Source: Alligator mississippiensis (lineage: Eukaryota; Chordata; Crocodylia; Alligatoridae). Taken from it: DNA of 64,000 nt. Positions 15,309 to 40,110 of the stretch are shown here, piece after piece (the stretch's first letter is position 1; the number at the start of each line of letters is the position of its first letter). Location of the stretch: positions 168,462,933 to 168,526,932 of the forward strand of contig NC_081824.1 of the NCBI RefSeq assembly GCF_030867095.1. Direction: 5' to 3'. The notes beneath the pieces were generated by a model that made no database searches, was not told the origin of the DNA, and saw only the letters and a program-made list of their open reading frames with translations. Both the position numbers and the translations under genes were made by a program.

Positions 15309-15313
15309 CGGGC

Positions 15314-18237: not shown

Positions 18238-18275
18238 CTGCTCTGACTTGCTGTAATTACAGCGTGTCAGAGCAG
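18238..18275. repeat. 38-bp near-perfect palindrome
   Basis: CTGCTCTGAC and GTCAGAGCAG flank the 14-bp palindrome GCTGTAATTACAGC, with only two unpaired positions per side. A second palindrome with the same core, ATGGTAATTACCAT, lies at 18198-18211. Probably part of a small palindromic DNA element. Confidence 0.7.
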
Positions 18276-19559
18276 CCTTGCTGTATGTGTATAGGTGCTT
18301 ATGGTGCCAGGGTGACTTCACCATCCAGCATTAGTAAGTCCGCGAATAAAGAGAGGCATGGATGCAGGTAGCAGGATAAAGAATGGCCACCCTGTTCCAG
18401 TGAAGGATTGGGCAGCAGCTCCACTCCTAACTTCCACAGGGTGAGGATTGCAGGATGTGGTCACTGAACAGGGAAGGCTTTTGTGGAAGCTCAGGGTCAG
18501 CTTTGTATTCCTCTCTTCTAGTTTAATGGGCTTTTTGCTCCTGATTACACCTAAATTTCTGTAAATAATGGCCTTCCTTTCAGTACTAGTTGGTCAAGAG
18601 CTGTTACAGGCTGTGCTTGAGAAGAGCTTTCATAAGCAATACCTGGGCTAGATGGAGGGGAGGGAAGGCATCGCTATCCAGGGACTACCCTGGCACTATT
18701 CTTACATGGCCCCAAACTGGTAAATTTTTGCCACAGTTTGATTTCAGCTGCAAGCTGTGTTCTCAGTGCTATACAGAATATGGAACATTCCTTTCCTAAA
18801 AAGCTTTTTGTGATGGATGACAGAGAGGATGGCTCTGGTTTCCATGGCAATGCTTTTAAATTTGACTATGCCACCTAGGAAATGTAGGACTTCCAGCTGG
18901 CTGGTGTTTGAAGCTCTTTCAGAAGGAACAGGGAGTGAGGTCGTGCCGTGCTGGTTCTCGTCTGCTGTTGGCCAGTGCTGCTTCTTCCACTGGGTTCTGG
19001 AGAACAGGGGAAGGGAACATTCCCCTGGGGCCAAAAATGGTGTCTGCCATGTGAACTCTGCAGCTGGAATTGTGGACATGCACTTAATTATCCAGCCCCA
19101 GATGCAGCTGTAAATCCACACAATGGCTAGGTCTGTGCCATCCTCTGCCTCACATCTCTGACCATCTGTTGGTGAAAGGGTAATTAAACCAAAACAGTTC
19201 TTACTGCAATTGAACCCTAGGAGCAGAGAGAACTGAGCCTGACATAAACATCCTTCTCCCAGTAGGAAGTCAGAATTGGGGCTGTATTTTTCACTTATTT
19301 AAAATATGAGAACATTTGACTTGGTGCTGCTCATTTATCTGCTTCTCCCACGTGTGCTCGCCCTCTCTTCCCTCTTCCTTCCCTCCCCTCCCCTCCCCCC
19401 CAACCATGTTTTTTCTGGACACAGGTGTGTGAGTCTATTCAGTGGAAATCACAATGCAACATTATGCCTGCAACTTAATTTCCAGAGGTCAGTTCCCCCC
19501 ACACTTGTGACTTTTCCATATGAAGCTTTCTGAAAATACACTGCAGCATGGTGTGAGCT

Positions 19560-19690
19560 AGAGGTGAAAACACTGGCAGAGCCCACTGTGTCTTTGATCC
19601 ATTCCCAGCTCTGCCACTGACTTGTTTTGCAGTTTTTTGTGCAAGCTTCCTGTGCCTCAGTTTCTTCACCTGTGAAATGGATCTAGCTTT
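19560..19690 (+). mobile_element. MIR-type SINE
   Basis: Contains the MIR core: cattcccagctctgccact, then tgtgcctcagtttcttcacc and tgtgaaatgg. Old and diverged. Confidence 0.8.
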
Positions 19691-21744
19691 TGCTCACCTG
19701 GATATTGGGTGGATATTGTGAACACAGATCCATTAATGTTCAGGCAGTCAGAAAGGAAATGCTGTTGAAGAGAAACATGTTCTAAATTGTAAGATACTAA
19801 AGATGCTGATCTGAGGTAAGGATAAAACACTTGATCCATTGCCAGAAAAGAAATGCATCATTAATAGGGCTGAGCTTTTAATAGCACGGGTTGGGAGAAA
19901 TTGTAATTTCTTCTTTCCCAACAACTGCTGCTGCTGTATCCCATGTGCCTATCTAGAATATGTTACCTGGGGGCCAGAGCTTCAGAGTGGCCCAGTCCAG
20001 CCAACAGCAACCGAATGACATTGTAACTGCTTGTAACTTTGCAGGATAGCTGTCATGGATAAGAAAGAGTTGCTTCTAAGGGCAGCTTAGGATGGAAGGA
20101 CTTGGTCTTTTGCTGAGACCCTTCAAGGGAGACAGTTTTTTAGTGTTTCTGCAACTGCATTTTGGACGGATTTGGAGGGAAATAATGATTCCAGTTTTAT
20201 TGGTTGTCTTCAGGCCAGTGTGCAGTGTTGGGAACAGAAATGGGTAGCTGTTACTCCCTTTTGCCAGCAGAGGTAGGCTGGCAGAGGTGGGGGATATCGT
20301 GTCACCCCATTGTGCTTAGTAGGGTGCTGCCTACCTGAGCCAGGGGGTAGGGAAATAGTTTTTAACATCTGGTTGATTTTTATGTTGATAGCAAAAATGG
20401 GTTATCAGTAAATTACTCATGGGAGACTCAGGCCTTCTTCACACACAGCTTCTGAAGTCTGTTTAGCTTAATCAGTAAAACTGTTGTATGGATAATTAGC
20501 ATGTCTCTTGTGCAGGCATCCTTAGTTCAATTTTGAGTGCTTTGATATCAGTTCATTATGGGGTGCCCTCTAGCTGAATTGGGAGTGCCCATGTAGGAGG
20601 GTTACACTGATTTACCTATGTCGATTTCCAAACCAGATTGGGTGGACTAAAACACAGTGGGTGTAGGTGAGACCATGTTGGGGGGAGCTGCTCCATTTCA
20701 TTAGGTATTGAATGGAGTGCAACATTGACCAGAGCTGTGGTGCCCCGGAATGAGTCTCCTATTCTGTGGCATTGACAACCCCTACAACAGTGTAATGGTC
20801 CTTTGGGTCCCTGATATCATTATGGGGTGAGTGACATCTTGGGCTGTGGGTTTCAACAGGGCAGCTGGTGTGGATTGCTGGGGATTAGATCATGTTTATT
20901 GAATACCTTTTATGGGGGCTGAGAACACTGGCCAAAATGTAACTGTTCTTGCTTTTTGTGCTTCAGTGCTTCATTTTGGATTTCAGATCCCAAGAAGGCA
21001 TTTTATAGGTTACTCTTTCTGCCTCCCATATCTGGCCCCAGAATACAAGAGCTGGCAGAGCCCTGGGGAAGGAGATTCCTGCTTAATGACTTGTTTAAAT
21101 GCTTGTGCAGTCACTTTCTTGCTGCTCTCCAAGCTGCTTGCTTGCTGTAGCTCTTGCCTTGCTGCTCACAGAGAGTGAGGAGTTAGGGCACTGCCTTAAC
21201 ACCCCCCTTGGGTTTTGCTAGCATTTGCTTAGGACATGACCTTGTGTCAACACTTGATTGTGCTTGTGCTGTCAGTGTCCCAAGTCCAGTCCTCCGGAAG
21301 TGCTGACCACTCATCTGACCCCTGTGAGCTATTCCCTAAGAACATGTGAGATGCTAATGCATCTCCCTTTAAAGACGTGCAGCAAAGCTGCTAAATGTCC
21401 TTGCTTTATTGCTGCTGCTTCTGCCTCAGGATGCTTCCTTAACTCTGCCTATAGAGCAGAGCTGTAGGAGCACAGATACCAGGAGGTTTTGTTTGGGGAA
21501 GGAATAAAAAAACAGGGGACACAAATATGTAGTGTGTGTTTGGGGGAGGGAATATATGTAAACCAGAGACTTGCTGTCAGACCACCTTGGAGGTCTGTAG
21601 GGATCACAGCACAAGTTCAAGTAGGCTTGTGCTGCTCTCATATTTGCCTTCAACCAACATGTTGTACAGTAGGAAGTGACCCAGATGATTTGGTAGATGA
21701 CACTTCTGAGCAATGCTTTGGGCAATATTAGCTGGAGTCCTTAG

Positions 21745-21925
21745 AGAGCGAGGCAATTAGTTGCATTAGTCTAAGTCAGGCAGAAGGCAAGGTAGATGTA
21801 CATCTTGTGGACTAATTAAATTGGAGATGAATCAGCATCTGATTAAGCGACTGTTGCTCATGAAAGCTTATACACCTCTGATTCAGTTTATCCATAAAGT
21901 GCATGTCTACCTTGCCTGGAGCTGT
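21745..21925. repeat. Interspersed repeat with inverted ends
   Basis: The aggcaaggtagatgtacat block near 21788 is the approximate reverse complement of atgtctaccttgcctg near 21905, making a loose foldback. The left part also matches 62665-62745 (ttaatctgaagtcaggcaaa type). Confidence 0.5.
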
Positions 21926-23619
21926 TAAAGAGCCTTTAGTACTTCTTAAAATTAGGGTGCTAGTGCTGCATGTCTGACTACATCCTAGCTTGGATATTTT
22001 CTGCATCACTTATATTCACCCTACCTTTTAGTTCGATATCAGGTTCTTTGCCTTGCATCCTAACCTGTTGTATAGTGGTGCTGTGAGCTGCTGTTCAGCT
22101 GGAGCTACATTTCTGTAATGTATGGATGCAGTGACTTCTGAGCACAATTGAAGTTTATAAAGTGATTCAGGATGTAAAGTGCTGTTGAAATCGAAACCAC
22201 AGTAAGTAACAGAATAGGTGTCCAGGGAACTGGAGTGTGGCTGAGCTGAAGAAACAATCATCTTTGTTTTGGAGAGCAGCTTTTAGTAGCGGCCAGGCTT
22301 TGCCAGGCATCCTGGCTGTTTGCTGTTAGGCTGCCCCAGGAACAGCTCTTTAATGAAAGACTGCCTGAGGAGGAACCTGGATTGTGGTGAAATAGGGCAT
22401 GGTTATGAATGTCAGATACCCTATGGTGCCTGTTATATTAGCCTTCCTGACTGCCTTGCTGGATCAAAAGAGGTTTTTAGAAAAGGAGACAGGAAGCTAA
22501 AGCAAGGGGGGCAGCCCCTCATGCATGGTAGCCAGGGTTATAGTTGTGAGGAAGCTTTATCTCCAAAGTCATGGCTATTCTGCCAAGGCTGGGAAGAGGG
22601 AAAGAAACTGAGCTGTCATGAGCTTTACAATGTCCCAGAAGTTGTTGGCTGTGCTAGGCTGGCACTTGGTGGCTGAGAAGCCAGGGTCTGCGCGTCCCTT
22701 TTGGGAGAGGGAAGGGTTATAAGTTTGAAAGACTTCTCCCCTAGTACTCTGTGTAAAGGGAATGAATTGCTGTTACCTCAGAGTCCTCTGTCTCTCCACA
22801 TGTCTGGAGGGAGGTCTTGTTTGCTGCTGAACCTGACTGCTGGAAATCTTGGAGTTGTTGCTGCACGTGATTTGTCCCAGTCTGTTTTCATCTGTTAATG
22901 ACCTCTGGAAGGGGATTTGAGCTGTTGCAGGTGTTAGCTTGGGAACAGGAGGGTGATGACTCTTGAGAAGTATTGCTGCTGGGAGGTGGAGAGGGCAGGT
23001 CCAAGGGACAGAATGAGCCAGGCCTCTGACCAGGAGCTAAATCCTGCTATGATGTTGGGTTGCCGTGAGCTGCTCTGGCTGGCAGCGCCAGGACCACAGG
23101 CTGCCTCTGACACAAGATTGCTGACCCCTTAATGAACAGGGGGCAGAGTTGGCCTGTGCTGCGCACCCAATTTTAGGGGCTTGTTCTCTCTTCTGCTCAG
23201 CCCACCCTTGCTCAGATAGCCCCGTCTGCTCACATGTGTGAGCCTCCCCTCCTCTGGGATCCGAAGGGAGATCCCAGGTATCGTGTGCATGGGGCCTCAG
23301 CTGTGGTGTTGCTGCCAGCAGATTCAGAAAAGTCAGCAGCCTGAGCTTATCTTGGCTGGGCTGCTTTGCTGGCTACAGCCTTACTGCAGTAAGACAGGTT
23401 GTATGCAAGTGCTAGATAGGGATATAGCTGAGGGGAAAGGTGCAACCCTGCCATGATTCCTGAAGCTGTCCTGCCGTAGGGTAACAGCCCAATGCCTTGG
23501 CAGGGTGCTGCTGGCTCCAGCCCTGGCGTGTGGCTGTGTATTGCTCCGCGCATGCCCATGTGCACTTGCACGTGTCACTGATAGGTGCCTGACACTGAGT
23601 TTCCTTTCTCATGTTTCAG

Positions 23620-23715
23620 GAGTCGTCGGCCAGATGCTGCTAGATACCGGCAGGCGAAAAGTAGACTTGCAGACAGGAGGACACCGATGTTTGGGTGCGT
23701 TGTCACTTGGGATCT
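23620..23715 (+). other. Candidate 5' untranslated exon upstream of TJAP1
   Basis: A 96-bp segment has a pyrimidine-rich acceptor (ttcctttctcatgtttcag) and a good donor (ATCT|gtaagt). It holds several CpGs in an otherwise CpG-poor stretch. It may be a leader exon of TJAP1. The case rests on splice-site quality alone. Confidence 0.3.
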
Positions 23716-26700
23716 GTAAGTCCTTGTTCTGACGGAAAGTTACCCAAGGATGCTGAATTGCTCTAGTAGTGATCTCTGATTGCTGGGGTGGGCAGGTGTG
23801 TTATGAGTTCCAGGGGTGTGGTGGAGGGAAGTGCAGTTGTCTTTCTCCCAACCCATTGTATAAGGCAGATGACCTGAGATGGAAGGTCGTGGATGCCAGG
23901 AGGGGAGGGAGATAAGTCATATTGAGACTAAGGAGTTGCCTGCAAAGAGATGGCCAGACCTGGAGCTTGTTCATTCTGAACACTCCTGTGTAGATCCCTG
24001 TGGGCCATTAGTAGCAGATCTCCTGAGGGAACTCCCTCTGTAAGTCTGGTAGTAGCTGTGTGGTGCTGGTGACTTCGGCAGTTGCTTCCTGCTGGCCCAG
24101 TGGAAGTGGCATCGATCCAGTGTGTGTGGGAGGGCGCCTCTTTATGGCTGAGTAGGTATGAGCTCTGTTGGGAGTTAACTTGCTCTTGTGCCCTGAGGGA
24201 GGTAGCTGTGTTGTTGTGAAGCTGCCTTTCCTGTGGTAGTCAAGGCCTGAAGACAACATGATAGTAAGGAAAGGGGCCAGCCCACTTGTTGGGGCAGGGC
24301 CGGTGCCAGGGTGTCTCTTCAACTTGTTCCAACAGAGCTCAAGCTGTGCACAGTCCCTGTTGCCCATGTGCTCCTTTCCCCTTCTGTCTGGCTCTCCCTC
24401 TGTGCGAGTGCAGATGCTTTCTGCCTCCTTGGGCTAGGTGCCAGAAGCAGGGGAGGTTGGCTTCAGGCAGGCATTGGGAGAGGGAGGGCCCAGTGGATTT
24501 GCTTCAGTGATGGTGGCTGTGGGGGAAATGGCTTTCTGCCTGGGCTTTTGCATGGTTGCTGTCCTATTCCAATACCCTAGGTTCAATAGTTGCCATGCTG
24601 GGCTTGGTCCTTTAGATGAGGAGGGTGTCTCTCTCCTTGGATTTGTATCATGCGTTTGCTGGGGGCTGCTGCACCTGGGGGCTGCCTGTAGAGATACAAG
24701 CTACAGAAGGCAGTATCCCTTCTTGTCCTGAACCAGGCTCTGTAGAAACTGCCATTGCCGCATCAGCTAATGGTAGATAATAAGTAGGTTAGCTAAAGGT
24801 CTCTGCTGTAAAGCAATTGGCAGTGGAATAGTTACCTTTGCCAAATCTGCCATGAGGTTTCAGAGGTAACCACCCACCAAGGTAGATGGGGGAAGATCTA
24901 GTTGGAGGGGTCCCAGTCCTGGGAGAGGTTTGCTTTTGACCCCTGTGGAAGCAGGGTTGGCAGACACTTGGAGTTCTTGTTTTAGGCTCTGTGGAAAGCA
25001 GAACTGCACCTAGGGCATATTGAGAAGGTGCGTCCAAAGGGCTGAAAATGTAACTTAAATGCCGAAGCAGAGGTTGTGCTGTTCACTTTCCACTTGGGGC
25101 CTCCAGCCTGGTGAAGAGATTCTCCAAAGCCTGCTAGGGTCTGTTTTTCCCTAGAACCTGCTTTTGAAACTCATATTCACTTTATTTAAATAAGGGTCAG
25201 TGGCTGACTAATAACAGGTGCACTCAGACTGTGGATTGAGGTGGGGAAGTGAGGGATCCTGGCCTTCTTTGGCTTTCCCTTCCTAGTTGTCTGTGTATAA
25301 GCATTGAGCTCTTCCTTACAAATGAGGTTGCACTCTTGTCCCCCTCATACACCTCTACCCCAGACAGATGCACATGGATAGTGCAGGAGCTGGGCTGTTG
25401 CCAGGTATTGGGGCTGGAGTGTTATGGGACGTACAAATGTATTCTGTGATGGTTGTTAAGCTTTCTTTGTGTTTTCCCCCACAGAACATCCGAGTGAGGC
25501 TTTGAATTGGAGCCCAGGCTGGTAAGTGCACAGCTTGTCATGGGCTAGAAAGATGGCTGTAGGGCTTTGAGATGCCTGCACTTGCTCCTAGTGGCTGGGA
25601 AGGAGTTAAATGAAGGAGTACTCCAGGTCACTTGGCTGGTGGCATGGCTAGCAATTGGAGCTGCTGCACTCCTCTCCAGGAAGGAGAAACACCTGCCCCA
25701 TAAGCTGGCCCATCTCTCAGCTGATGTGCCTTGGGTCTCGCAGTGGGCTGCATGGTGTGTGGGCCCTGGTAGTCCCCTCTGAGCGCCTCTGGGAGTTTTG
25801 TAGTATAGTAGTGCTCAGGGGCACTAATAAGAATTGGGACCCTGGTATGTTGGTTGTAAACCCAAAAGTGGGTATGATCTGTCTCCAGCTTTCCTTTCCA
25901 GCAGGCTGAGACAAAGGTGGGTCTCCATGGATTTGACAGGAGAGGGTATAAAATATAAGCAGATAAGGTCAGAGCAGGTGTTTCATGCATAGTGCGGGAA
26001 GAGGTTGAAGGGGCCATGCGGGATCTTCTGTGTTGGGGGCAGAGAGCAATATGTTAAGAGACTGAGGTTGTTAGGCTTTGTATAAACAAACAAATTAGAG
26101 CCATGTAGCACCGAAGCACTGTACAGAGAGGTAACAGTTGTTACCCCAGAGACCGCAATCTATGGGCATGGGCAGATGAACAATGACTTGTTTGAAACAG
26201 AGAAGACTTACTATTAAGGAGTGTGCATCAGCTACCGTGGTGTAACTGTTTCCACTCCTAGCCCACAGTGAGTGCAGCTAAATTATGGTAACTTAACCCT
26301 GTTTCATTTAGTTTTCTCTTACTAAGAGATGGGAGTGGACAGATGAAATGGCTGCAGTGGATTCAGTTCAGCTGTGGTAAAGCCCTCCTTAAAACCCTGC
26401 TATTGTTTCTGTCCATGCCTTAAATGTCATATAAAACAAGACTGAGCAAGAGTGGGTACGTGCAGGGGAGGTTCTGGCCTCCTCAGCCTAGTAATCTTGT
26501 TTTGGCCAACATGCATTGTGCACATTGCAAAAGTGATGAGGAGCCAGGTTTCGAACCATTGAACTTAAGACATCCCCTGACCTTTTGGCAAGGGGAAATG
26601 ACCTCCCTGAAAGGTTTGCTGGCCAAGAGTCCAGGCAGCCTGCATGTGGAAGGGGGCTGAGTGGCTGGCTCAGCATCTGATCTGGGGGAGTAGCTCCCCC

Positions 26701-27900
26701 AGATAGAAGGGGCTAGTGCAGAGTTCATCCAGGGTCTTGCATAGTGAAGTGTTTCCCCTATGCTCCAGAGATGCAACACAATTGCTGAAGGGAGAGGAGG
26801 TGCCAGGGAGCATGGAAGAGATGGATGGTCAGTGCTGAGAGGCAAGGAGGTGGCCAGCGCTTGGATATGGACAGCAGGGGGATTGGGCATTAGGGCCATA
26901 CCTGAGCGGGGCCATGGTGTTGCCCAGTTGGACATGCTGAGGGGCAGCTGGCATACCTGTGGCACTTCAGTGAGTTGGCACCTCCATTGCTGCCTGGCTT
27001 GGGCCACTGCTCACACCTTGTCTTGCAATCCTGGTTGACCACCAGAGTCTCCCTGAGCACTGCCCTCTGGCTCAGTTTCCTCTGAAGGGCAGCAGCCTCC
27101 TCCATGCCCAGGAGAGCTGTTCTAATTCTGTCTGTCTTTGTCCTGCTTTAGGTCCCATTTGCCCTGAAACATGGGAATCCTTGCACCCAGAACAGAGGGA
27201 GCACTGGTGGGCGTTGACTGGCGTGGTCTCCCCCTCAGCTCTACAGCTGAGCAGTGCAGAATCCAGTCCTGGGCTCCAAAGCCAGTGGTAGTCAGCTTTG
27301 ACCTGATTGGTGCCTTCTGGTTTTGATTTCCCTCTTTTGAGAGAGTGAACAGCTCCAACGGTGCTCTCAAGGCCTGGCCTGGCATGCCTCTTCTTGGGAG
27401 CAATCTCTCTTTAATAATGCAGACCAAGAACTGCCAGGCTCTGGCTGTGTGCTACATGACTGCAGCCTGTGTCAGCAGTGACAGAGGGAGATCAATAGCT
27501 CTTGCCTCAGCCATCACTGCTGCCTGTTAGGCTTGCAGTTTCCATATTGAATAAAGGCCTTTCCTAAAGAGCATGATCAATATGCTGCTCTGAGGTCTGT
27601 TCTCGTTTGCTATATATAAACTGGATGCACGCCGTACGTGAGTGAGCATGTGCAGGGGGTAGGATGTGCCAGCTTGCCACTCTTGCCAGCTGGGAGGAGG
27701 ACACGGCTAACTTCTCCTCCATCCCCTTTTCTTGCAGTTGCTGCTCCAGGTCCTTGAGTTGCCTTCTTCCCCTTTTGTGGCAGCACATTGGATGGGAAGC
27801 TCCTGGGGAGCCTAGGGCCTCTGATCTCCTGTTGGAGAGGCTGTGGGGCTGGAAGGGGCACCAGTGAAACTCTCTTCTGTGCCCTTTCTGCTCTTGGTAG
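23716..27900 (+). other. Probable TJAP1 leader introns
   Basis: Non-coding except for the candidate leader exon at 25485-25521. A weak old repeat may lie near 26100-26170. Confidence 0.45.
25485..25521 (+). other. Candidate 5' untranslated exon of TJAP1
   Basis: A 37-bp segment lies between a strong acceptor (tgttttcccccacag) and a consensus donor (CTG|gtaagt), 2.4 kb before the TJAP1 start exon. It has no long frame, as expected for a leader exon. There is no transcript evidence. Confidence 0.45.
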
Positions 27901-27932: not shown

Positions 27933-28058
27933 ATGTCAAGCACAGCTCCTTCCAAGAAGCCTTACCGCAAGGCACCGCCGCAGCACCGGGAGGTCCGCCA
28001 TGATGTGCCCATTCTCCGAGAAGACCAGGACGGCGTGATTTTGGCTGAACAGAGTCAG
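27933..28058 (+). CDS. TJAP1: TJAP1 coding exon 1 (start codon)
   Basis: The exon follows the acceptor ctcttggtag, which ends at 27900, so its untranslated part is 27901-27932. The ATG at 27933 gives MSSTAPSKKPYRKAPP, the family's N-terminus. An upstream in-frame ATG at 27843 lies before the acceptor, in the intron, and was not used. The donor CAG|gtaaca after codon 42 (EQSQ) is in phase 0. Confidence 0.93.
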
Positions 28059-31000
28059 GTAACAGATTACCGGGCGGCTAAGGGCCTGGCACCATTACAC
28101 CAGCAAACAGGGTTTAGTTATGCCGAGGCAGGTCAGCTCAAGCAGGCAGAGGGAACTGAGGCTGGCAATCTTAACTTTTCCTCCTCCTGCTCCCTGGAGT
28201 CGAGCAGTGACAAGGAGTTGGCAGGGCGCAGGGCAGGCCTGAGCCTCAAGAGCTGGACCCTGTCATCCAGGCTGCTGCCCTTTGGGAAAGCAAGGAGGCG
28301 GAGTGGGAAGCCATGTAAGCCCCACAGCTGTGGGCGCCTCAGCAAGTTCATGAGCCGCAGTGTGGAGACAGTAGTGTCTGGGGACGAAGGCCAGGCACCC
28401 ACCTGCTCCTTCAAGAGTGGGAGCTTGGAGCGCTCCCTCATGTTCAAAGAGCCTGCTGAGGTCCTGGCACCTGGGATGTTGCGGGTCTCCTCCACCCATC
28501 TGCCTCTCAAAGGGATCCTGAAGCAGCCAGGTCTGTTGGGAGTGTGCCCTGAGACCCTGCGCAAGTCCCGATCAGTGGAGGCCTTGACTCGGGGCCATGA
28601 CTCCCGCAAGTACAGTGACACTCTGCTCTGTCTCAGGAAGAGGGAGAGGCGCTCACAGGAGCGCAGCAGCAGCAGTGGCAGCAGTGCTGTCGACTCCACC
28701 AAGCGCAAGGAGAAGCTCACTGAGGAGAAAGTGCAGTTCTCCAAGTTCCTGGATGAGATCTCCCAACGGGTGCTGAGCCCCAGTCACCTGCGCTCTGTTG
28801 GAGAGAGCAGAGGAGGAGGCCAGGAGTCTCCTTCCTCCCCCAGAGTCTCCACACCAGAAGGCCAGAAGGAAACCCAGTCTGAGGGTGCTAAAGCCAAGCG
28901 AGCAGCTGAGAGGAAGCTCTGCCAGAGGCAGAGAAATGCAGAGAAGAGGTGTGAAGCTCAAGAAATGGCTTCTAGCCAAAGGCAACCCACTGAGGAGGCT
29001 GAGCAGTCCCCTCAGCCAAGGAAGAAGCTCATCTTTGTGAGGAAGGACAGCAAGGAGAAGCTCATCTCTGTGGAGAGGAAGGTGGCAGATCTATGCCAGG
29101 ATGAGCTGCAGCAGTTGGCAGAGCGGGGTTTGGCAGGGATGTCCTCTGGGCAGCAACAGCTGCTATCTTCATGGAAAAACAATCAGGAAGGAGAAAGGGA
29201 CAGAGAAGAAAGCTGGAATGAGCAGCCAGTGCGGTCCCAGCATCTTGGTGCCAAACCTGGTCAGAAGCACATGATGGCACCAGGCTGCCTGGAGAGGAGA
29301 TCCTTTTCCCCTCCAATATACTGGAGCCAGGAAGAGGGGTGTCCTTCACCTAGAACCTCCCCTTCCTTCAGCCTGGCACTAAATAAGGTATGTGCCAGGG
29401 TCCTGGAGCCCAGGCCCTGGACCGGAATAGGCACAGATCCCTCCTTCCCATCCTGGCTGTCCCCCCTCTCCTGCCATCCCCCAGAAAGGCTAAGGCCCTA
29501 CTCTGATTGTGTGTGGACGGGGGTGGTGGGGGAAGCCAAAAGGCTAATGTATATATCTGAACTCTGGGGGTGGAGGGGTCAGGCAAAGTTTTTATCCTTG
29601 CCTTTTTCAACTCCCTTCTCCAACTTGGAAGCAGTGGGAAGCTCCTTCCGAGTTAACTGCTGGGTGCACAAAAGGAAAAGTACTGAATTTCTGTCCCCTG
29701 AGGGGGCAGAAGAAGGCTAGGAGTGCCCAGAGTGAAACCATGTTGTTTTGAAAGCACACAAGTGCTGATGCCCTCTGCTAGCCTGCTTGGAGGACAGCCC
29801 TACTCCTTTCTTTGCTGTCACTCAGCCTGAGCACCTTGTTTCAGCGGGGAGCATCTCCCTCTCAGTGATTGTCAGTTCTGAGGAGAGCTGATGCCTCTTT
29901 ATCCCCTTTGCAAGCTTCTTGGCCTTCTGTAGTTTAGAACCTGCCTAACAGGTTGCCAGGTACCAGCAGGTAGGAATGGCCACAGCTGGTTAGCCTCTTG
30001 GCCCAAGAAGGAGGGTCCTCGTGTCCTGCCTGTAGCTGGACACTGGTAAATTGGCCCCAGTTTTGTCCAAACTCCCTTGTCTTGCTCTGGTTAGGTCCTT
30101 GTTTGAAAGTGCTTTCAGCCCCTCCCCTTCTGTCCACCTAGCTGGCATCTGGGCTGAGGAATCATTTCTCTGACTGCCTGGTTCTTGTGCCCTTGACTTC
30201 CTGGGGTCAGCTGGGCTCTCAGTGTGTAGAGCTGATGTAGGGGCAGAGACTACCGGAGCAGGGTGTGGGGCCTGGGGCCAGTCAGCCTGTGCAGGGCCCT
30301 GCCCCTGGACATAATGGATTTGGCAGTGCGGGGTGCCAAGCAGCTGGAAGCGAAGCCGGCGGCAGTGGTGAGTCGTCACAGCTATTCTGCCTGGCTCTGC
30401 CGGGGCCAGGGTGGTCACCCCGATTTGTGTGCATACCTCCCCTGGGATGGCCCTGTGTAGGGGAGTGATGTTGCAGAAGATGAGAGCCCATACAGCAGGC
30501 TGGGAGGGTGTCTTGCTGTATGCAGAGTGGTCTGATGCAGCATAATTGGTTGGGGGCATAGTAAATAGGCTGCAGAGCTCAGGCCCTGCACACTGTAGAC
30601 TACAGTGTTCCCCAGGTGGTTTGGAGGAGGAAAGGAAGTGGGATAATAACACTGCATATTACAGCCATGATTGGGCCAGCTTCTATACCCTGGTATTGCT
30701 AGCACCAAACCTCTGTCAAGGGCATCTGTGTAGCAGGGTGCGCTTCACAGAGTAGAGACCTGGGCTGTTCTTAATAAGCAGATTCTGAGGTGCAGCATCA
30801 TCTTGGGAACCTTCCTGCTGAAAGAAGCTTTGCTTAGCCAAGGTTTGGGGCCTCCATCTGGTATTCCCCATTAAACAGCTCAAGGAAGCAGCAGTGTCCC
30901 AGGGGTTCCCTGAGGACAACCAGGGCTTTAAAAAAGGCCTTGAAGGGTCATTGGAAGTTCCTCCTCAGTTCTTATTATCCCACAAATGCAGAGAGCTTGC

Positions 31001-34000
31001 TCCAGGGTGCAAGGCCCTTCCAGGAAGCAGGCTGGCTGGCATATAGCACTTCACCTTCTGGTTTGGAGCCAAGAGGTACCTAGGAATTTGGCTGTAGCGT
31101 GACCTGCTCCAGCTGTGTATCAAGAAACAGTCAGTACAGAATTATCAGGGGAAGTTGATGGAAGTGGTTCTTTCCAGCTCTCAAACAATTGTAACCAATT
31201 GGTAGTGAATGGTTCAGAGGTTTTAGGGTGTGCTGGCCTAAGGGATTTTCACTGAGACTTGCTGTGAGGCTGCAGAGGAATGAGGCAGCAGGCATGGGGG
31301 TGTGGGTTTTGGGAGTCCTTCAAATTGCAGGTTGGGGCAGGACAGCCACACAATCTCTGCTGGCCTTTGCTTTAACACAGAGCAGTGTTTTCCCTGAGAT
31401 AAACCACGTGGACTATCTTGATATCAGCCTGGTTAAGAAGTAGTGTGTGCAGAGGCCAGCTTTCTTAACCAGGCATGACATGGGGGGATCATTTCCTTGG
31501 ATTTTGCCTCTGGATGCCTGTGCGCGAGTGACTCATGCCTTGAGAGAATCTTACAACTCTTTTCTTCTCTGCACAGGAGCCCTTGACAGACGCAGAAAGG
31601 ATGAAGTAAGTGTTTGGTTCTCCACTCATACTCTGGCCACCCTGGCATTTCTTTGTGCTCACTGATTGCCAGCACCTTCTGTACCATTGACTTACACTTG
31701 CACATGTGTCTTTAGGTGTACAAGATGAGTTTCCCCTCTAAGTTGTTTAGCGAGTCTTGGGCAGGGTTTTCTTCTGTTCACCTGGTCAGATTCTGCTTTG
31801 TTTTCCCATGTTCCTTGGGGAGCGCTTGCTGAGTATAGTTGCCTAGTCAGTGGAATGGTTCTCCCACTTCTCAGTCAAAATCAGTAGGTGTGTAATTATT
31901 TAGGAAATGTAGCATAGGCTGTCTTTAGCACCCTCATAATTGAGGGGTGATGGTACAGACACCTTTAATTGTAACTAACTCTCCCCCCCCACATCAGCAA
32001 GGGGGAGAAAACTCAATGCCACCACTTCTGTGTGATTCAATTGCTAAAGCAAATGAAGTTGTGGCATCTTGCTGCAGTTATGGATAGGTACTGATAGGAG
32101 GCAGCTTTTGTTCCCTATTCCTCAGAATCCCTGTGAACAGCAAAGTGGTTCAGTTGGAGAGCAGCTCTGTCTCTGTGCTATGGAGCACGGTGAGAGCATT
32201 ATGGTTTGAAGTGTCAGGCACCCACTTGAGCAAGTGTCTTCCTTGGTTTGGCAAGAAGAGAGTCTGTGGCATTGTAACAGGATCTGTGGAAGCCTGCTGG
32301 AGCATCTCCCTGCAATAGACATATCTATCTCTGCCAGTTCTGCTTGCTGGCCCCCTCCACTACATGTTTAGGATGAGAGGGTTTTCAACAGCTCTTGTAT
32401 GTCCAGCTGCTGTAGGCTGGGCTGGGATGAATTATTGAGTGGGTTTCATTCTCTGCTGAGGGACACCGGAGCCGTGCAGCCCATCTGGCTAGCAGGCTTT
32501 ATCCAAATGCCGTAACCTGAGAGGGAGCCAGTGACATGGATGGCTGGGCTGCTGTGCATTGCTCTCAACACCCCTGCCAGCAGTTTGCGATAGGCAGCCG
32601 CTCAGAAGGATAAAGGTGGTTCAGCAGCTGTCCATGCGCTTTGTTCTTGACCTGTAAAGCTTCCCCAACATCCCTGCCCTAGAGTTTGGAACAGGGTTGC
32701 TCCACTAAAGCCTAACCAGATCCCTCCAAGGGTGAGCATGTACACAGCCACATGTTTTACCTCCCTGTGATACGCATTGATCAGTGGCTCTGGGAGAGGG
32801 GGCCTGAGATGTTTCCACTAAAAGAATCACTTCACATCACAAAGGTCTGTGTGGGGAAATGGCTGTTCTCTCCCACCCCTCCAGTACACACATACACTTT
32901 GGAGGAGTTGAGTTAAACTGGAAACAGGAACCATTCCAATCACCGGTCCCACAAGAATAGCGTAGGAATACCCTGGCTGCCTGTGGTGTAGCCCCTGCTC
33001 TCAGGATCCTGGAGTGGGTCAGGTGTTGGCATGAGACCTGCAGCCTGGGGCACTTGCTGAGCAATGCCTTGCTCCCCTGTGCTTCAGGCTCCTGCAGCAT
33101 GAGAATGAGGAGCTGCGTCGGCGGCTGGCTTATGTCACCAGCAAGATGGAGGCAATGGAGAGGGAGCTGGAGTCTGGCCAGGACTACCTGGAGATGGAGC
33201 TGGGCCAGAACCGTGAAGAGCTGGAGAAGTTCAAGGACAAGTTCCGTAGGTATGGAGAATAAGAAAAGGAGAGGATTGGGACCTGGAGAGCGTACTTTAA
33301 CCAAAGGCTTGCTCAGCTGTTTGGTTGGTGAAGGCCACGCTTGGGGTGTTTTAACCTGAGGCATGCAGCATCCCCAGTGATATGCCACTCACAAGAAAGG
33401 ATTAGGAGAGTTGCTCTGTGCCTATGATTGTAAGGCAGCTGCCTCTGGGGTGGAGCAGAGGAACACCATGCCACAGTACAGGGCAGGGAGGAAGTGAAAA
33501 GGGAATTTGTCGAGTTAGTTATTAGACACAGTGAAAGGGCCAAGCTGGAATTTGGCCTAGATTCTAGGGTTAACGTGAATTTTCTGACAGTTAAAAAGGG
33601 GCCAGAGGATCACGAATGACTGGGGGGTGGGGTGCATGTTTGTGTCTCACCCAAAAATAACATTCCCTCCTTTAGTTCCCACTGTCTTTGACTGTGCTGG
33701 TCAGGGCTGACTTGGAGCAAAGCACCCAGTATTGAGACATCCATCTGGAGTAGTTGCCTTTTGTGGTTTCCTTGGGGGAGGTCTCCCATCCAAGGATTGG
33801 CTCAGCTCAGCCCTGCTTAGTTTGAGGTCTGAAGGGATCAGACATCATGTGGCAAAGCTGGGTATAGTATTAGCATGCCTGGCTGTCTGCTTTGAGGCAA
33901 GCAGTGTTTCTGCATGTCTGGCATTTGGGCTGTGGAGAGGACTTGAATTGATGGCCTGGATTCCTTCTCTCCTGGACATTCATGTCTCTGTTTAGGTTAC

Positions 34001-37000
34001 AGAACAGTTACACTGCTTCCCAGAGAACCAATCAGGACCTGGAGGAGAAGCTGCATACCCTGGTATGACCTCCTAAGCCTCTCTCTCAAGAGGAGGTGGG
34101 GGGTGTTTGGGATGTTACAGAGATTGTCTTTGGGGTGAGGAATCAGGGGGCTAGGGATTGCTGCAGCTGAAGAGGGAGGTTTTGACAGTGGTTCCCCAGT
34201 CCGAGCCTGGTGTCCTGAGATGGTTACTTCATTTGTGTGGACCCCACTTTGTCATGCCCCTGAGCTTGGCTTCCTCTCAGTGTAACTGCACCTAACTCCA
34301 CCATGTTGGATCAGCACCTTTTCCAGGTGATAGGGATGTGATGCTCCCTGAGGACAGGGGAGGGAGCTGCCCCTGGGGGTGGGTGTCAGTGGGGGTTGTC
34401 AAAACAGAGCCAGCATGTGTGTGTGTATGTGTGTTTGTGTCTACTGTGTACATTCATAACGCTCATGGCTGTTTCTTTTCTCTCCCTCCCTCTCTCTCTC
34501 CTCCCCATGCTGCCGTGGCGCACGCTGGGTGCGCTCACCTCTCAGGCCTCTCTCAGCCAAAGCTGGATCTTTGCAGTTGCGTCTTTCGTTTGTGTGTTTT
34601 TTTTCTTTCTCCTCTTTACATGTCTCAGCCTGTCAGTTTCATTGTCAGTCACGCACGCACCATCCCAGATCGAGGGGCCCCAGTCTTGTCTGGCCAAGGG
34701 TTCACCTGGTATCCAGCAACACAGCTGCCCATAGAGGCAGCAGGTCCTAGCATGCACTGCTCCAGCTGAATGTGAGCACTGTTTGTGATCTGGCTGGAGC
34801 ATTGCATGCTGGGAGCATTGTGCCCATAGGCTGAAGCACTGTTAGAGGTGAGGGTAGCCATGAGCCCGCTTTGGCCATCCCTGCTGTAGACAAACAGACA
34901 CCAGTGCGAGCCATCAGTACCTGATTGCCTGCACTTAACATAGGATGCACGTGTAGTTCTAGCCTTAGCACCAGGAGCTTCCAGAAGTTAATGTGCAGGT
35001 GCCTGATGAGTTGGCCCATGTTTCAGAAACATCTTATCCTCATGTCCTGCTCTGCTTGTTACGCTGCACCCTGGTCTCACTGCTGCCCACAGTTGGACTA
35101 TGTTGGTCACATTGACAGGGCTTCTGTAGCCCATTTGGGGCAGGTAGAGGAGCTGGTCCCTCTGACTGCTGTTAGCCTCCTTGGCTATATTTCCCCCTAA
35201 GTGGAAGCTTCTGAAGAAGTGTTCCTGCCTTTGGGACAGCATTAAGCAAGTCCCAGAAAAAGCTGTAGACAGACCCTTTTTCACACCAAAACAAATCCTG
35301 AGCTCTTCTGAAGAAACAGAGCCTTTTACCTGCTGAGTCAGCACTGACTCCCGTGCGTTCTCTGGGCAGCATCTTGTCCTGTTGCCTAGAGTCAGGGGAG
35401 GAAAGGCTCTCAGACACTTGGAGAGTGACCTTTGCTACTGGTGAAGGCTTTGGGTTGGCAGTCTGGTATGTCTCCAGGGAAGCATGAGGGTGAGCTCCTC
35501 CCCTGACATCCCTGTATCCCAGTCTTGACTCCAAGGCTGAGAGGGACTTCAGTCTCTGAACAGTGTTGCTGCAGCAGGTGTAGAAGGAGCCACTGTGCTG
35601 GGAAGGATCAAACTCCCTTGCTTCACTAGCTGACAATCATGGCATGTATTCTCCAAAGCCAGCACAGGGTGGCTGGCTCTGTGCGCCATTAGAGTCCCTC
35701 CCTCTGTGGCGAGCCAGGCTGCTCCTTGTCCGTCTGAAGGCTTCGTCCTGAGCTCAACACATTTGTGCTGTGCTTGGGTGAGGCAGGGCGAGAGGCGCCC
35801 TGTGCTGGTGAGATTGACACCTCGTGTTCTTGTGTCCCAGATTAAAAAGGCAGAGATGGACCGGAAGACGCTGGACTGGGAGATTGTGGAGCTTACTAAT
35901 AAGCTGTTGGATGCCAAAACCACTGTCAATAAACTGGAGGAACTAAATGTAAGCGTCATTTGGAGCCCTTGACTGATGTCTGTGATGTCTGTTCTTTAGC
36001 TTCTTCACGAATAACTTATGGCAGGGAGGGGAGGAGGCGGGGGGGCTGGGGGGATAAGGAGAATAAGAGGGACTAACACGCAGACAGTTTTGGGGAGCTG
36101 TAAGCATCAGTGAGGATGGGTGTGTATGGAGGGGGGAGAAAGCAGGAGACAGCAATGTGGAAGTTGGAAAGTGGGAGTCAGGAGTGAACGAGATTGGAAT
36201 TTGCAGTGTGATTTGGTGGCAGAACAGGTGTACTGGGAAACAAAAGGCTGGTATTCCCTGATCAGAGGTGGCAGTGGCGAGGGGCCTTCTCCACAGGTTT
36301 GGTGTACTGCATGTGATTCTGGGTACCTCCTTATGAGACTGGTTGGAGGGAGTTAAGAGTAGTGACAATAACCTGGGGGTTGTCTGAAGGGTGAACTCTG
36401 CCTGGTTGGGTTAAGAGGTCTGGGGTGGGAGGGGGAGGGACTACATATGGGACAGTACAAACTCCCAGGAGTGAGAGGCTAAATACAGAGACAGGTTGTA
36501 AGTTAGGAGTGAAGGGAGAGTGTTGAGCATGTCAGCTGGAGTGCAGATAGCTGTACTGACCTGTGGGAGAGCCTTGTGAGGATGGGGACAGAGAAGCCCT
36601 GTTGTGAGTAGACTGCCCTTCTGTGAGTGTCTGTTCAGGTTGGGTGTGAGTGAAGGTGGTAAGGTGAGGCTGGTGCAACTCTCCCATCCCCATGCTTGTC
36701 CCCTTCTTGGCAGGAGCGATACCGGCAGGACTGTAACCTGGCAGTGCAGCTGCTAAAGTGCAACAAGTCCCACTTCAGGAACCACAAGTTTGCTGATGTA
36801 AGTAGCAGCTCTGCAGAGGGGGTGGGGAAGGGCTCATAGCCCCTCTGTGCCTGGCCCTCACTTGACACAGGGTTGCCTTTTCCTCTGGGTGTGGAGAGGG
36901 AGCTTCCTGAGCACTGGGTGTGTCCCAGTGACCTCCCTCCCATAGGCATCAGGCAGAAGTGAGAGGAGAGTGAGGCAGTCTGAGACCCCTTCTGGCTCCC

Positions 37001-40000
37001 CTTTCACACCAGCTCCATTTCACATCTCTGTCGAAACTGTCATAAAAAGCTGCCTTTCCAGGGCATGGGGGGGTGGGGTGTTTCGGGCATAATAGCTTTG
37101 AATTTGATAGCCTTTTGGGTGCCTGGTGGGAGCTGGCAGGAAAACAGGCCTCTCGCTTGCCTCTTTGTCCACTTCTGCTTATCACCTGGCCATATGTGAG
37201 GCCTGTGCTGTCTGCTGAGGACCTAGCTGGCTGATCTGCCATTGAAGGGTCCCCTGTGCCAGGTTCCCTCACACTTGCTGGGGTTGTGAGGTGGAAGAGA
37301 AGACTTGGGGTGTCAACCAGTATGTCAGCTCCCAGCCCTGGCGAGTACTTCTCAACCCAGAACGGGTGTTTGAGCTTCATGAATGCAGGAGGCCAGAACC
37401 TTGCGTGTGTGGGCCTGGGGACCAGCATAGCCCGTCCCATGCTGCCCTGCCTTGCCCTGGTGGGTGAGTGAGGCACCTAGGCCTAGGGTATTTCACATTC
37501 ATCCTGACGTTTCATGCACCTGAAGCAGTGGGCGGGCTTCAGCGCCATTATTCTCATCCTGTATGTTCATTGTTCCCTAGCCCCTTAGAGGTTCCTCTCG
37601 GCAAACCCCTGGTGCTCGTTTCGTGAACTAGCAGGTGACTGATATGTCGTTCCCCAGACGTGTCTCAAATTAGCACTCCTGAGGTCATTGTATCAGTTAC
37701 TGCTGTGGTAACCTTGACCTCTCCCAGCTGTCTCCCCTCACAGGAGGTTTGCATTCTGCCCAGAGAGCCAGGCCTCACTCAGATGCCAGTGGAGGTAGAG
37801 TGGAACGGAGCAGTTGTAAAGAAACCTGCTTTGTGCCCAGCTCTAGCCACACTGGGGACCCACTTGTCTGTATGCAGGGTCCCTCTTGGTCCAGCTCTGA
37901 CAGTCTTAGGTGTTGGCATGTTGCAGCAGGGATTCTGCTTATCTTCATTGCCACTTTCCTATCCCTGCCTATCAATGGACAACAGTGTTTAATAGGCAAG
38001 ATGCTGGGGAGTGGAATAGATCTATGGAGCCTGGCTAGGCAGTGTGAGTGTTGGTGCTAACCCCTTACTAGATTCCAGTCCTAGATGTGAGTGAACTGTT
38101 CCCTGGGTTCTTGACTCCCTCTGAGTGTCATCTCTCCTGGATTTGAGAGCTCGGCCCCAGGAACTAAACCTCTGCAAGGTGGAGGAGTCAGCCAGAGTTT
38201 GCTCCTGCCCAGGCATTGATGCCTCGGCAAGGCGACTGGGCAGGGTGAGAGTTGGGAAGTGCTAGGACAGCCATTGATTCTGATCCCAGAACAGGGCAGG
38301 CTGCCAAGACAGCGGGGCTGTAATTACTGCTGGGGCCCTGAGAGCTGTGGATCCTGGCACTGGGAGCTGTTCAGTCACTTCAGTGCAGCCACCAGCTCAT
38401 TTTTTCCACAGATCAATAGCTCTCTTTGTTGAATGTGCATTGTCTAGGCCTCCACTCCAGCCCAGGAGTTGAGAGGCCCGAGCCGTGTGCGCTGTCTTGT
38501 TTCTTCTTTTGAATGGGGTCCATCGGTCAGGCCTGGTGTGGGCTCCTGTGGGCTCCATCCACAGCTGCCTTCAGTTAACTCTGCTGGGGAGCCAAGGGCC
38601 TGTTCTACAGGGAGATGTTCTGAAGTGCTTGGGGACAGGGGAATGTAGTGTGTGCAGCACTGCAGGGTGTTTGCTCTTGCTTGGTGGAGCAAGTGTTGTA
38701 TTTGCTGCTTTGTGTCTTGTCCCAGCCTGTCCTGGCATTGTGGAATCTGAGATGCTGTCTCAGCCACTGCTTGATGCCCTCTCTCCTTCTCCACAGCTTC
38801 CCTACGAGCTGCAGGACATGGTCAACAAGCACCTTCACAGCACTCAGGATCCCCCAGGCCCTGGCCAGGAGGCAACGCACACCCTGGCCCCATCTGATGT
38901 TGTGCCCACCTCAGTCATTGCCAGAGTCCTGGAGAAGCCCGAGTCATTGGTGCTGAACTCTGCCAAATCCAGCAGTGGCAATTGCCCCATGGCTGAGGAT
39001 GTCTTTGTGCATGTGGACATGAGTGGAGGAGGTGTGCCTGATGCCTGCCCCAGCCCAGGCCTGCCTGGGAAGGAGGGAGGAGAGGCTGGAAAGCAGCAGA
39101 ACGGAGGCTGCAAACCACAGAGCAGTGGGGAGAGCTTGACAGAGGAGGCACCTGCCTTTGAGAAGTTGAGCCCCTACCCCACGCCCTCCCCTCCCCACCC
39201 CATGTACCCAGGGCGCAAGGTGATTGAATTCTCAGAGGACAAGGTGAGGATCCCGAAGAACAGCCCCCTGCCCAACTGCACCTATGCCACACGGCAGGCC
39301 ATCTCCCTGAGCCTGGTACAGAGCGAGGACGAGAGTTGTGACAGGCACCGGACACTCCCCAATAGCCCTGCCTCTGAGGGGCGCCACTCAGGCTCCAGCT
39401 GCTCCTACCAGCCCTCACCCAAAGCGGCACGGGCCCATGGCTCCTCACAGAGCAGCCCTTTCAGCAGCCCACCCCAGATCCCCAGCGCCTTCGCCAGCTC
39501 TGCCAGCTCTGAGGAAGACCTCCTGGCCAACTGGCAGCGGATGTTTGTGGACAAGGCACCCCCCACCTCGGAGCGGGTGCTGGTGAACCGCACTGCCTTC
39601 AGCTGCGACACAGCGCCAGAGCTCCAGAAGCGCTTCAGCCGCTCCATGCAGGAGCTGGGCAGGGCGGTTTCTGCCTACTCAGATGGCGAGGAGTCTGCGC
39701 AGAGCTGCAGCTGGACTGTGAGCCGGGACTCGAGCGTGGACACTGACAGCACTGAGTCTCGGGCCCGCAGGAGCCACTTCTCTGACTATGGTATGGACTT
39801 CTCCCAGGACGAGGCCCAGAAGTTGCTCCAGGGCAGTGGAGGAAGCACTGCTGAGCCTAACAGCCCCCCTCCAAAGAGCAAGAGCTATGTGGACCTGGGC
39901 TCGCCTGGGAGCCCAGCAGAGGAAAGGGAAATCCTGCTCCAAGGGAGCAAAGAGAGCAGCCATGTGGGCACCCTGGAGGAGAGCGGGGAGTGCAGGGGCA

Positions 40001-40110
40001 AGCTTCCCTCTGGCCGGCCACACCGCAGCCCCAAAAGGATGGGGGTCCACCATCTCCACCGCAAGGACAGCCTGACACAAGCCCAGGAGCAGGGCAACCT
40101 GCTCAACTGA
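27933..40110 (+). CDS. TJAP1: Tight junction-associated protein 1 (TJAP1/Pilt), seven coding exons
   Basis: Coding exons are 27933-28058, 31577-31605, 33088-33249, 33996-34062, 35841-35948, 36714-36797 and 38797-40110. All junctions are AG/GT and the phases agree, giving 629 aa (human about 557). The start MSSTAPSKKPYRKAPP and the end RKDSLTQAQEQGNLLN match the known TJAP1 termini almost residue for residue. Residues about 43-175 form a charged heptad-rich coiled coil (ENEELRRRL, EMDRKTLDWEIVELTNKLLD). The rest is Ser/Pro-rich and probably disordered, with conserved blocks such as PTSVIARVLEKPESL, AEDVFVHVDMS and RKVIEFSEDKVRIP. From family knowledge, TJAP1 associates with tight junctions, binds the guanylate-kinase domain of DLG1, and is also found at the Golgi. 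The extra length over human lies mostly in the last exon. The gene is convergent with LRRC73, as in human. No frameshift is seen, so it looks functional. Exon 1 has a second, longer splice option, listed separately. Confidence 0.96.
28059..29387 (+). CDS. TJAP1: Optional 443-codon extension of TJAP1 exon 1 (alternative 5' splice site)
   Basis: The frame from the TJAP1 start codon stays open past the short donor for 443 codons to AAG|gtatgt at 29387|29388. That donor is also phase 0, so it can join the same acceptor at 31577, giving a predicted protein of about 1,072 aa. The insert (residues 43-485) is rich in Ser, Arg, Lys and Glu. It has an Arg/Lys-rich stretch near residue 130, LPLKGILKQPG near 190, KSRSVEALTRG near 210, KEKLTEEKVQFSKFLDEIS near 262, and a charged helix-like stretch (AKRAAERKLCQRQRNAEKR) near 325. 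It does not look like a transposon. I recognise no named domain, and the mammalian TJAP1 that I recall lacks it. The frame runs open to 29720, so intron retention is a weaker alternative. Seen: the open frame and donor. Inferred: expression. Confidence 0.6.
29388..31576 (+). other. TJAP1: TJAP1 intron after exon 1 (long form)
   Basis: Intronic. The frame stays open to 29720 but becomes less protein-like past the donor. It contains the candidate alternative first exon at 30314-30367. Confidence 0.7.
30314..30367 (+). CDS. Possible alternative first coding exon of TJAP1
   Basis: An ATG with A at -3 and G at +4 begins an 18-codon frame (MDLAVRGAKQLEAKPAAV). It ends exactly at a consensus donor, GTG|gtgagt, in phase 0. 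The next acceptor at 31577 is also phase 0, so this exon could supply a different N-terminus to the TJAP1 coiled coil. The segment is GC-richer than its surroundings. No homology supports it. It may equally be chance, or an untranslated or cryptic exon. Confidence 0.25.
31577..31605 (+). CDS. TJAP1: TJAP1 coding exon 2 (29-bp microexon)
   Basis: Flanked by tctgcacag and gtaagt. It encodes EPLTDAERM plus two bases of the next Lys codon, identical to the family sequence at this point. It starts in phase 0 and ends in phase 2. At 29 bp it is easy to miss by ORF scanning, because its frame runs straight into a TAA formed with the donor. Confidence 0.93.
33088..33249 (+). CDS. TJAP1: TJAP1 coding exon 3 (coiled coil)
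   Basis: The acceptor is gtgcttcag and the donor AG|gtatgg. It encodes LLQHENEELRRRL and continues through ELGQNREELEKFKDKFR. It forms the main part of the coiled coil and is near identical to mammalian TJAP1. It begins by completing the Lys codon and ends in phase 2. Confidence 0.95.
33996..34062 (+). CDS. TJAP1: TJAP1 coding exon 4
   Basis: The acceptor is gtctctgtttag and the donor CTG|gtatga. One base completes Arg, followed by LQNSYTASQRTNQDLEEKL and HTL. It ends in phase 0. Confidence 0.95.
35841..35948 (+). CDS. TJAP1: TJAP1 coding exon 5
   Basis: The acceptor is tgtgtcccag and the donor AAT|gtaagc. It is 36 codons long, from IKKAEMDRKTLDWEIVEL to KLEELN, and among the most conserved parts of the family. 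It is symmetric, phase 0 at both ends. Confidence 0.95.
36714..36797 (+). CDS. TJAP1: TJAP1 coding exon 6
   Basis: The acceptor is cttcttggcag and the donor GAT|gtaagt. It is 28 codons long, ERYRQDCNLAVQLLKCNKSH followed by FRNHKFAD, with phase 0 at both ends. This is the end of the coiled-coil region. Confidence 0.95.
38797..40110 (+). CDS. TJAP1: TJAP1 terminal coding exon 7
   Basis: The acceptor ccttctccacag ends at 38796. The open frame upstream of it (from 38485) is intronic. It is 437 codons plus TGA, from LPYELQDMVNKHLHS to QAQEQGNLLN. It is Ser/Pro-rich with conserved islands (AEDVFVHVDMS, KVIEFSEDKVRIPKNSPLPN, SASSEEDLLANWQRMFVD, SPKRMGVHHLHRKD) separated by variable linkers. It is GC-rich, and the several long antisense frames across it are shadows. 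Confidence 0.96.
   Translation, partial: LPYELQDMVNKHLHSTQDPPGPGQEATHTLAPSDVVPTSVIARVLEKPESLVLNSAKSSSGNCPMAEDVFVHVDMSGGGVPDACPSPGLPGKEGGEAGKQQNGGCKPQSSGESLTEEAPAFEKLSPYPTPSPPHPMYPGRKVIEFSEDKVRIPKNSPLPNCTYATRQAISLSLVQSEDESCDRHRTLPNSPASEGRHSGSSCSYQPSPKAARAHGSSQSSPFSSPPQIPSAFASSASSEEDLLANWQRMFVDKAPPTSERVLVNRTAFSCDTAPELQKRFSRSMQELGRAVSAYSDGEESAQSCSWTVSRDSSVDTDSTESRARRSHFSDYGMDFSQDEAQKLLQGSGGSTAEPNSPPPKSKSYVDLGSPGSPAEEREILLQGSKESSHVGTLEESGECRGKLPSGRPHRSPKRMGVHHLHRKDSLTQAQEQGNLLN

Follow-up and report, generated by a model that had tools for sequence, protein, structure and literature searches.

A 64,000-nucleotide stretch of the Alligator mississippiensis genome (contig NC_081824.1, here C1:168462933-168526932, forward strand; hereafter the window) contains TJAP1, whose first coding exon continues in frame from 28059 to 29387 (+) as 443 additional codons, free of stops and terminating at a strong 5' splice site of their own. 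This extension is likely to be a real coding module of TJAP1, joined to the remainder of the protein when splicing of the first coding exon uses the donor at 29387 and not the one at 28058; such splicing would be alternative, not constitutive, and the extension would be transcribed and translated. It is probably protein-coding in character, in frame and not an intron left open by chance, because shuffled sequences, codon usage confined to a single frame and the rank of the long donor all argue for coding, with the occurrence of paralogous modules in the same genome being decisive.

Judged from its sequence, the gene is TJAP1, because its spliced product matches the Pfam family Pilt (PF15453; E=4.6e-166, residues 282-628 of a 629-residue model) and because its N-terminal peptide KPYRKAPPQHREVR (codons 9-22) is identical at 12 of 14 equal positions to KPYRKAPPEHRELR (residues 9-22) of human TJAP1, a peptide that binds Mint1 (PMC10820826). 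The ATG-bearing exon follows an acceptor AG ending at 27900 and has its start codon at 27933 (surrounding sequence AGAAGGGAGGATGTCAAG); 27933-28058 (+) spells the 42 codons that include this equivalent of the Mint-PTB-binding peptide, followed by CAG|gtaaca. Downstream on the same strand lie a 29-nucleotide exon (31577-31605) with AG/GT flanks and phase 2 at its end, the coiled-coil exons (33088-33249, 33996-34062, 35841-35948 and 36714-36797) and the last coding exon, which encodes the Pilt domain (38797-40110). The spliced model of seven coding exons yields 629 residues via the short donor, without an internal stop, and 1,072 residues via the long one. An initial interpretation made from the letters alone (the sequence-only reading) had proposed a TJAP1 of about 1,072 residues, in which a protein-like module with a donor of its own separates the first 42 residues from the coiled coil, and the model bears out this length and position. 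The alligator gene shares the N-terminal peptide, the coiled-coil exons and the Pilt C-terminus with mammalian TJAP1/Pilt (PF15453) and differs from it in the extension: the mammalian reference protein (about 557 residues) is not known to carry a module of 443 residues ahead of its coiled coil, and Pfam contains no model for it.

Several lines of evidence point to a coding extension. The claim that the start frame runs stop-free through 443 codons to AAG|gtatgt at 29387 agrees with translation, the six frames of these 1,329 bases containing 0, 10, 23, 9, 8 and 19 stops. None of 2,000 dinucleotide-preserving shuffles of the extension was open (minimum 4 stops, mean 13.6), and the longest stop-free sense-frame run in the six TJAP1 introns (29388-38796; 0.0406 stops per codon) is 157 codons; the chance of 443 open codons is approximately 1e-8 at the intron stop rate and 1e-6 at the rate of the shuffles. 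Under a codon model for which TJAP1 exons 2-7 and five introns served as training sets, the reading frame of the extension scores +0.091 bits per codon and the five remaining frames range from -0.142 to -0.425, while the null distribution (288 overlapping window-frames from 16,900-27,728) has a mean of -0.525, a standard deviation of 0.068 and a maximum of -0.375. The start frame remains open beyond the long donor, its first stop codon ending at 29720, and this tail scores -0.426. When synonymous choice only is considered, the extension reaches z=6.0 against intron-based recoding. The commonest of its 443 residues are Ser (65), Leu (43), Glu (42), Arg (41) and Lys (35), so the earlier description as Ser/Arg/Lys/Glu-rich is roughly right.

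Homology searches place the extension outside known repeats and domains. In the whole genome (2.35 Gb, 195 contigs), which was also searched for paralogues, the full 485-residue sequence matched only itself at E<=1, and the extension is therefore no repeat; with this self-match and no Pfam domain, it lacks the marks of a transposon exon, as the sequence-only reading had held. Nothing in Pfam exceeded the curated cut-off (top row DUF2852, E=0.08-0.09, 13 bits versus a cut-off of 22.5), the best row of a PDB sequence search had E=0.36 and nothing notable was found there, and NCBIfam, a prokaryotic library, gave no match at E<=1 to the extension or to the two paralogous frames described below, which likewise had no Pfam match at E<=1. 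A tblastn search of viral and prokaryotic contig collections, which are uninformative on conservation, returned no relative. The window contains 75 stretches that stay open for 120 codons or more, and by best-segment score the extension ranks seventh of them. Ahead of it stand the last exon of TJAP1, a transposon frame and, in a GC-rich region at 57.5-58.9 kb, four frames that overlap one another; that score alone would therefore not single it out. Long open frames are favoured in GC-rich DNA (57.6% here), and the open frames of up to 381 codons in the 57.5-58.9 kb region could be taken as a precedent for a chance open intron that yields no protein; in view of the shuffles, the codon usage and above all the paralogues, which contradict it, such an origin is very improbable.

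The two candidate 5' splice sites differ in strength. Among 85 GT sites ranked over 27960-29760 with a donor matrix, the long site AAG|gtatgt (29388-29393, +) scores 9.47 bits, the best of all 85 and of the gene's seven donors, and the short site CAG|gtaaca (28059-28064, +) scores 6.92 bits, fourth of the 85; the remaining TJAP1 donors lie at 6.01-8.23 bits. Both sites are phase 0 and either therefore fits the 29-nucleotide exon at 31577, a point of the sequence-only reading with which the spliced models agree. Since the long donor is the stronger, TJAP1 might by default be made with the long exon, in which case 29387 would be the normal donor, the GT at 28058 would be little used, the 1,072-residue protein would be ordinary TJAP1 and the short mammalian form would be derived. 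The paralogous long frames, each with one outstanding donor at the module end in the parts scanned, fit such a constitutive exon, whereas the short donor is on par with those of the later TJAP1 exons (6.0-8.2 bits), has nearly the same U1 duplex energy (-8.0 versus -7.9 for the long site) and keeps phase 0, and the short form is the one known in mammals. Constitutive use of the long exon thus appears a substantial possibility, albeit one that we regard as less probable than a choice between the two sites.

The strongest support for a coding module comes from paralogous sequences within the same genome. A 113-residue piece of the extension, taken around a core of 27 residues (264-290, EEKVQFSKFLDEISQRVLSPSHLRSVG; 28722-28802, +), gave five non-self matches at E<=10. 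The top one, at C15:3875836-3875943(-) with E=0.046, aligns LHKAKSVEAL...EEKQRFSEFLDEITQRVLSPARL to LRKSRSVEAL...EEKVQFSKFLDEISQRVLSPSHL of TJAP1; it thus includes, besides the core, a second common block, LRKSRSVEAL (28557-28586, +). In the reciprocal search, the TJAP1 extension was the best of nine non-self matches in the genome (E=0.026; the next at 1.34). The local alignment of the two modules scores 119, which none of 1,000 shuffles equalled (maximum 84), and the reversed C15 sequence scores 46. Because coil-like exons lie downstream on the same strand, the C15 locus (3.87 Mb, minus strand; L025:1141-2265 and L031), as read from tblastn and translation, is a third gene of the TJAP1/BEGAIN type. 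One of these exons, RLQEDYSSTQRSNRLLEEKLLTIV, resembles RLQNSYTASQRTNQDLEEKLHTLI of TJAP1 (E=0.02 in a tblastn search of 25 loci and 8.7e-4 when the search is confined to the two C15 loci), the exon preceding it contains the weak match GQQGLEQTWAELEALKEKFSR (E=3.6), and a further coil-like exon reads MAAERQALNQHVAELLERLI. Like TJAP1, the C15 gene starts with a long exon, which here encodes LHKAKSVEAL and EEKQRFSEFLDEITQRVLSP and has a phase-0 donor, and continues with a short exon whose end is in phase 2 and with coil exons; unlike TJAP1, its first ATG yields MAEQRRPAG without the KPYRKAPP peptide. A search for the Pilt C-terminus at C15:3860001-3878000 gave low-complexity matches only, none convincing (best E=0.012), and the C-terminal peptide of TJAP1 matched only itself genome-wide, with no C15 counterpart.

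A second related frame was found with the same 113-residue piece at C2:283523953-283524114(-), on the 5' side of BEGAIN, a TJAP1 paralogue whose name is backed by coil similarity; DLK1 and DLK2 are the neighbours of BEGAIN and TJAP1. BEGAIN-like coil exons, 47-58% identical to those of TJAP1, lie at C2:283388828-283389001(-) (E=5.4e-8), 283378862 (E=4.1) and 283274960 (E=0.0018, with one TAG within the scored stretch). The open frame (C2:283.524 Mb, minus strand; L029:1081-2067) has an acceptor (ctgatgcag|GAAGTGACATGG) and a strong phase-0 donor and stands 134,952 bases 5' of the first of these coil exons on the same strand. Five random matches would place 0.0003 of a match in a given 250 kb of one strand. 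In its own search of the 2.35-Gb genome, the sole non-self match of this frame was the TJAP1 extension (E=4.6). It resembles the TJAP1 module in its core and in having an acceptor and a phase-0 donor, and differs in having no SVEAL block before the core and in being AT-richer. The frame probably represents the first coding exon of a long BEGAIN form not described so far, to whose coil exon it would be spliced.

Across the three frames, conservation is concentrated in the core, which recurs in the C15 gene and more weakly on the BEGAIN side. Ten of the 12 invariant columns of the three-row alignment fall within it, and the pattern K..FS.F[LI][DN]E[IV][ST]..VL[SD]P..L fits the three frames of this one genome, from which it was drawn. 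Over the 27 codons of the core, differences at codon positions 1, 2 and 3 number 6, 5 and 9 between TJAP1 and C15, 14, 7 and 17 between TJAP1 and the BEGAIN side, and 13, 9 and 21 between C15 and the BEGAIN side; third positions vary most, as under protein constraint, with 27 codons being little to judge by.

The exon layout is shared as well. In the parts scanned, the strongest donor of each of the three frames is phase 0 and located at the module end: AAG|gtaggg of the C15 frame scores 8.68 bits and ranks first of 27 GT sites from frame base 300 onward (second 5.62), and ATG|gtgagc of the BEGAIN-side frame scores 9.05 bits and ranks first of 28 from base 500 onward (second 4.04). The short exon after the long one has 29 nucleotides in TJAP1 and 38 in C15, both ending in phase 2, as does the next coil exon of each gene; on our reading of the sequence, the BEGAIN coil exon starts with one base that completes a codon. 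The succession of a long phase-0 exon, a short phase-2 exon and a coil is thus complete in TJAP1 and C15, and BEGAIN agrees in the donor of the long frame and the phase of the coil exon. Because the core recurs in C15 and in the BEGAIN-side frame, with shared phase-0 donors and a short C15 exon of phase 2, the module probably predates the TJAP1/BEGAIN split. The sequence-only reading had left three histories for a module that mammals seem to lack, namely loss in mammals, gain in sauropsids or oversight. Related long frames front the coiled-coil exons of two paralogues, which tells against gain in sauropsids and leaves loss or oversight in mammals. Roughly an even chance can be given to the broader proposal that an ancient docking module, encoded by long first exons, was present before TJAP1, BEGAIN and the third gene diverged, that the 5' splice site or the first exon selects between two architectures of TJAP1 and possibly of BEGAIN, one with the conserved helix described below and one lacking it, and that the module lies outside the reference mammalian proteins.

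Structure prediction is consistent with a small ordered element within an otherwise flexible region. From the single 485-residue sequence, AlphaFold2 gave a mean predicted local distance difference test (pLDDT) score of 49, most of the extension being predicted as disordered or lacking confident structure, so that this model serves for little more than placing helices. From the three-row alignment of a 115-residue fragment, it predicted a helix at residues 252-280 and a second short helix starting at Ser-Pro (numbering shifted from the fragment), with residues 266-275 (KVQFSKFLDE) at a mean pLDDT of 94. On a dimeric scaffold, a conserved helix with disordered and charged surroundings would most simply be a docking site. 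On this model, use of the downstream 5' splice site (29387) in place of the upstream one (28058) would add some 443 residues, rich in Ser, Arg, Lys and Glu and for the most part disordered, after the Mint-binding peptide of the N-terminus and before the coiled coil through which the protein dimerises. The most conserved piece, EEKxxFSxFLDEIxxRVLSPxxL, predicted to be a helix of 25-30 residues, would give the scaffold one more site at which a partner can dock, and the choice of splice site would turn docking on or off. The module would belong to the original TJAP1/BEGAIN gene plan of a long first exon (phase 0), a short exon (phase 2) and a coiled coil.

A more specific proposal is that the module docks protein phosphatase 1 (PP1), through GILK (residues 194-197; 28512-28523, +), a look-alike of SILK-type docking motifs, and KVQF (residues 266-269, within the core; 28728-28739, +), a look-alike of the RVxF type 72 residues further on, both found as pattern matches, which would recruit PP1 to the TJAP1 scaffold as in Rif1. 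In Rif1, the SILK and RVSF motifs (2128-2131 and 2150-2153) bind PP1 (PMC5437018), and the extension presents its two matches in the same order. With a test whose patterns and distance range were set after the motifs had been noticed, residue shuffles produced a SILK match in 1.6% of cases, an RVxF match in 20% and an ordered pair 7-110 residues apart in 0.04%. The spacing of 72 is wider than that of 22 in Rif1. RVxF motifs bind in extended form, whereas KVQF lies in a confidently predicted helix. Moreover, although TJAP1 resembles Rif1 and inhibitor-2, PP1 regulators with SILK and RVxF motifs, in having GILK and then KVQF, the two paralogous frames contain no match to either pattern, and their core reads KQRF and KLKF; the conserved feature is therefore not the PP1 pattern. 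Because the paralogues did not keep the motifs and the core is predicted to be helical, PP1 docking is downgraded to an unlikely function of the module, and it could be an addition specific to TJAP1. The constitutive last TJAP1 exon carries KVIEF (39217-39231, +), a loose RVxF match and the only one of the short isoform.

Set against an ancient coding module with a conserved helix are a number of results that temper confidence in it. With regard to coding, one antisense frame equals the extension on the synonymous-only measure (-0.010 versus -0.021), the codon signal of the extension is below that of the remaining TJAP1 (+0.456, itself the training set), and the cumulative codon score is maximal at 29126 and loses 21 bits across the final 87 codons before 29387, so that codon usage does not fix the 29387 boundary. 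With regard to paralogy, the full 485-residue query reveals no paralogue in the genome at E<=1, those found having come from the 113-residue piece alone, and the shuffle tests leave uncorrected the Ser-rich composition typical of disordered proteins. The BEGAIN-side match has a genome-wide E of 4.6, which by itself carries no weight, and is the last of the five non-self matches; 1 of 1,000 shuffles equalled its alignment score with TJAP1 and 3 of 1,000 that with C15, and the frame is tied to BEGAIN by position and strand. With regard to structure, the fragment model is poor overall (mean pLDDT 60.8, predicted template modelling score 0.27), and the amphipathicity of the core is not above that of shuffles, 15%, 6% and 29% of which were as high. 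The weak codon signal, waning after 29126, would also suit a relic, that is, an old coding module whose splice use was recently abandoned in this lineage and which stays open by inertia; 443 stop-free codons, a frame that is still intact and a donor stronger than any other in TJAP1 speak against it, and we consider it improbable.

TJAP1 is found at the Golgi and at tight junctions (PMC10820826, PMC13305319), and its precise function has been called "essentially unknown" (PMC10820826). Nothing on such a TJAP1/BEGAIN module appeared among the literature matches listed, with most subscription papers outside that scope, as were automatic annotation databases, which may already contain long predicted forms of TJAP1 or BEGAIN, and none of six peptide strings was found in the literature searched. 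BEGAIN and TJAP1 occur together in PMC7205035, whose TJAP1 passages are gene lists, and in PMC4476183; among the matches listed for TJAP1 with PP1 catalytic subunits, PMC7205035 and PMC11744720 name TJAP1. In a microexon study, a figure legend lists Tjap1 among the pre-mRNAs assayed for MBNL1 and SRRM4 enrichment (PMC12148930), which is suggestive of regulation close by; the microexon meant there may be the counterpart of the 29-nucleotide exon.

Elsewhere in the window, a long interspersed nuclear element occupies 13032-16834 (-), with a long and open reverse transcriptase and endonuclease frame at 13032-15338 and an equally open upstream frame at 15314-16834 (-) that carries a GDSL-lipase/esterase domain. 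A second reverse-transcriptase fragment of 233 codons lies at 47118-47819 (+). In the GC-rich region at 57490-58890, both strands carry long open frames that overlap and have coding-like scores, and the region is possibly a CpG-island first exon; a Pfam search with one of these frames, 57891-58469(-), gave nothing at E<=0.01.

Paralogues within a single genome can bear on whether a long open intron codes. BEGAIN is a synaptic scaffold partner, and if both TJAP1 and BEGAIN share an N-terminal module that has been lost or overlooked, the short proteins studied to date would miss a conserved interaction site. Functional work on these short forms would then have overlooked the FSxFLDEIxxRVLSP helix, and the search for its partner would become a direct experiment.

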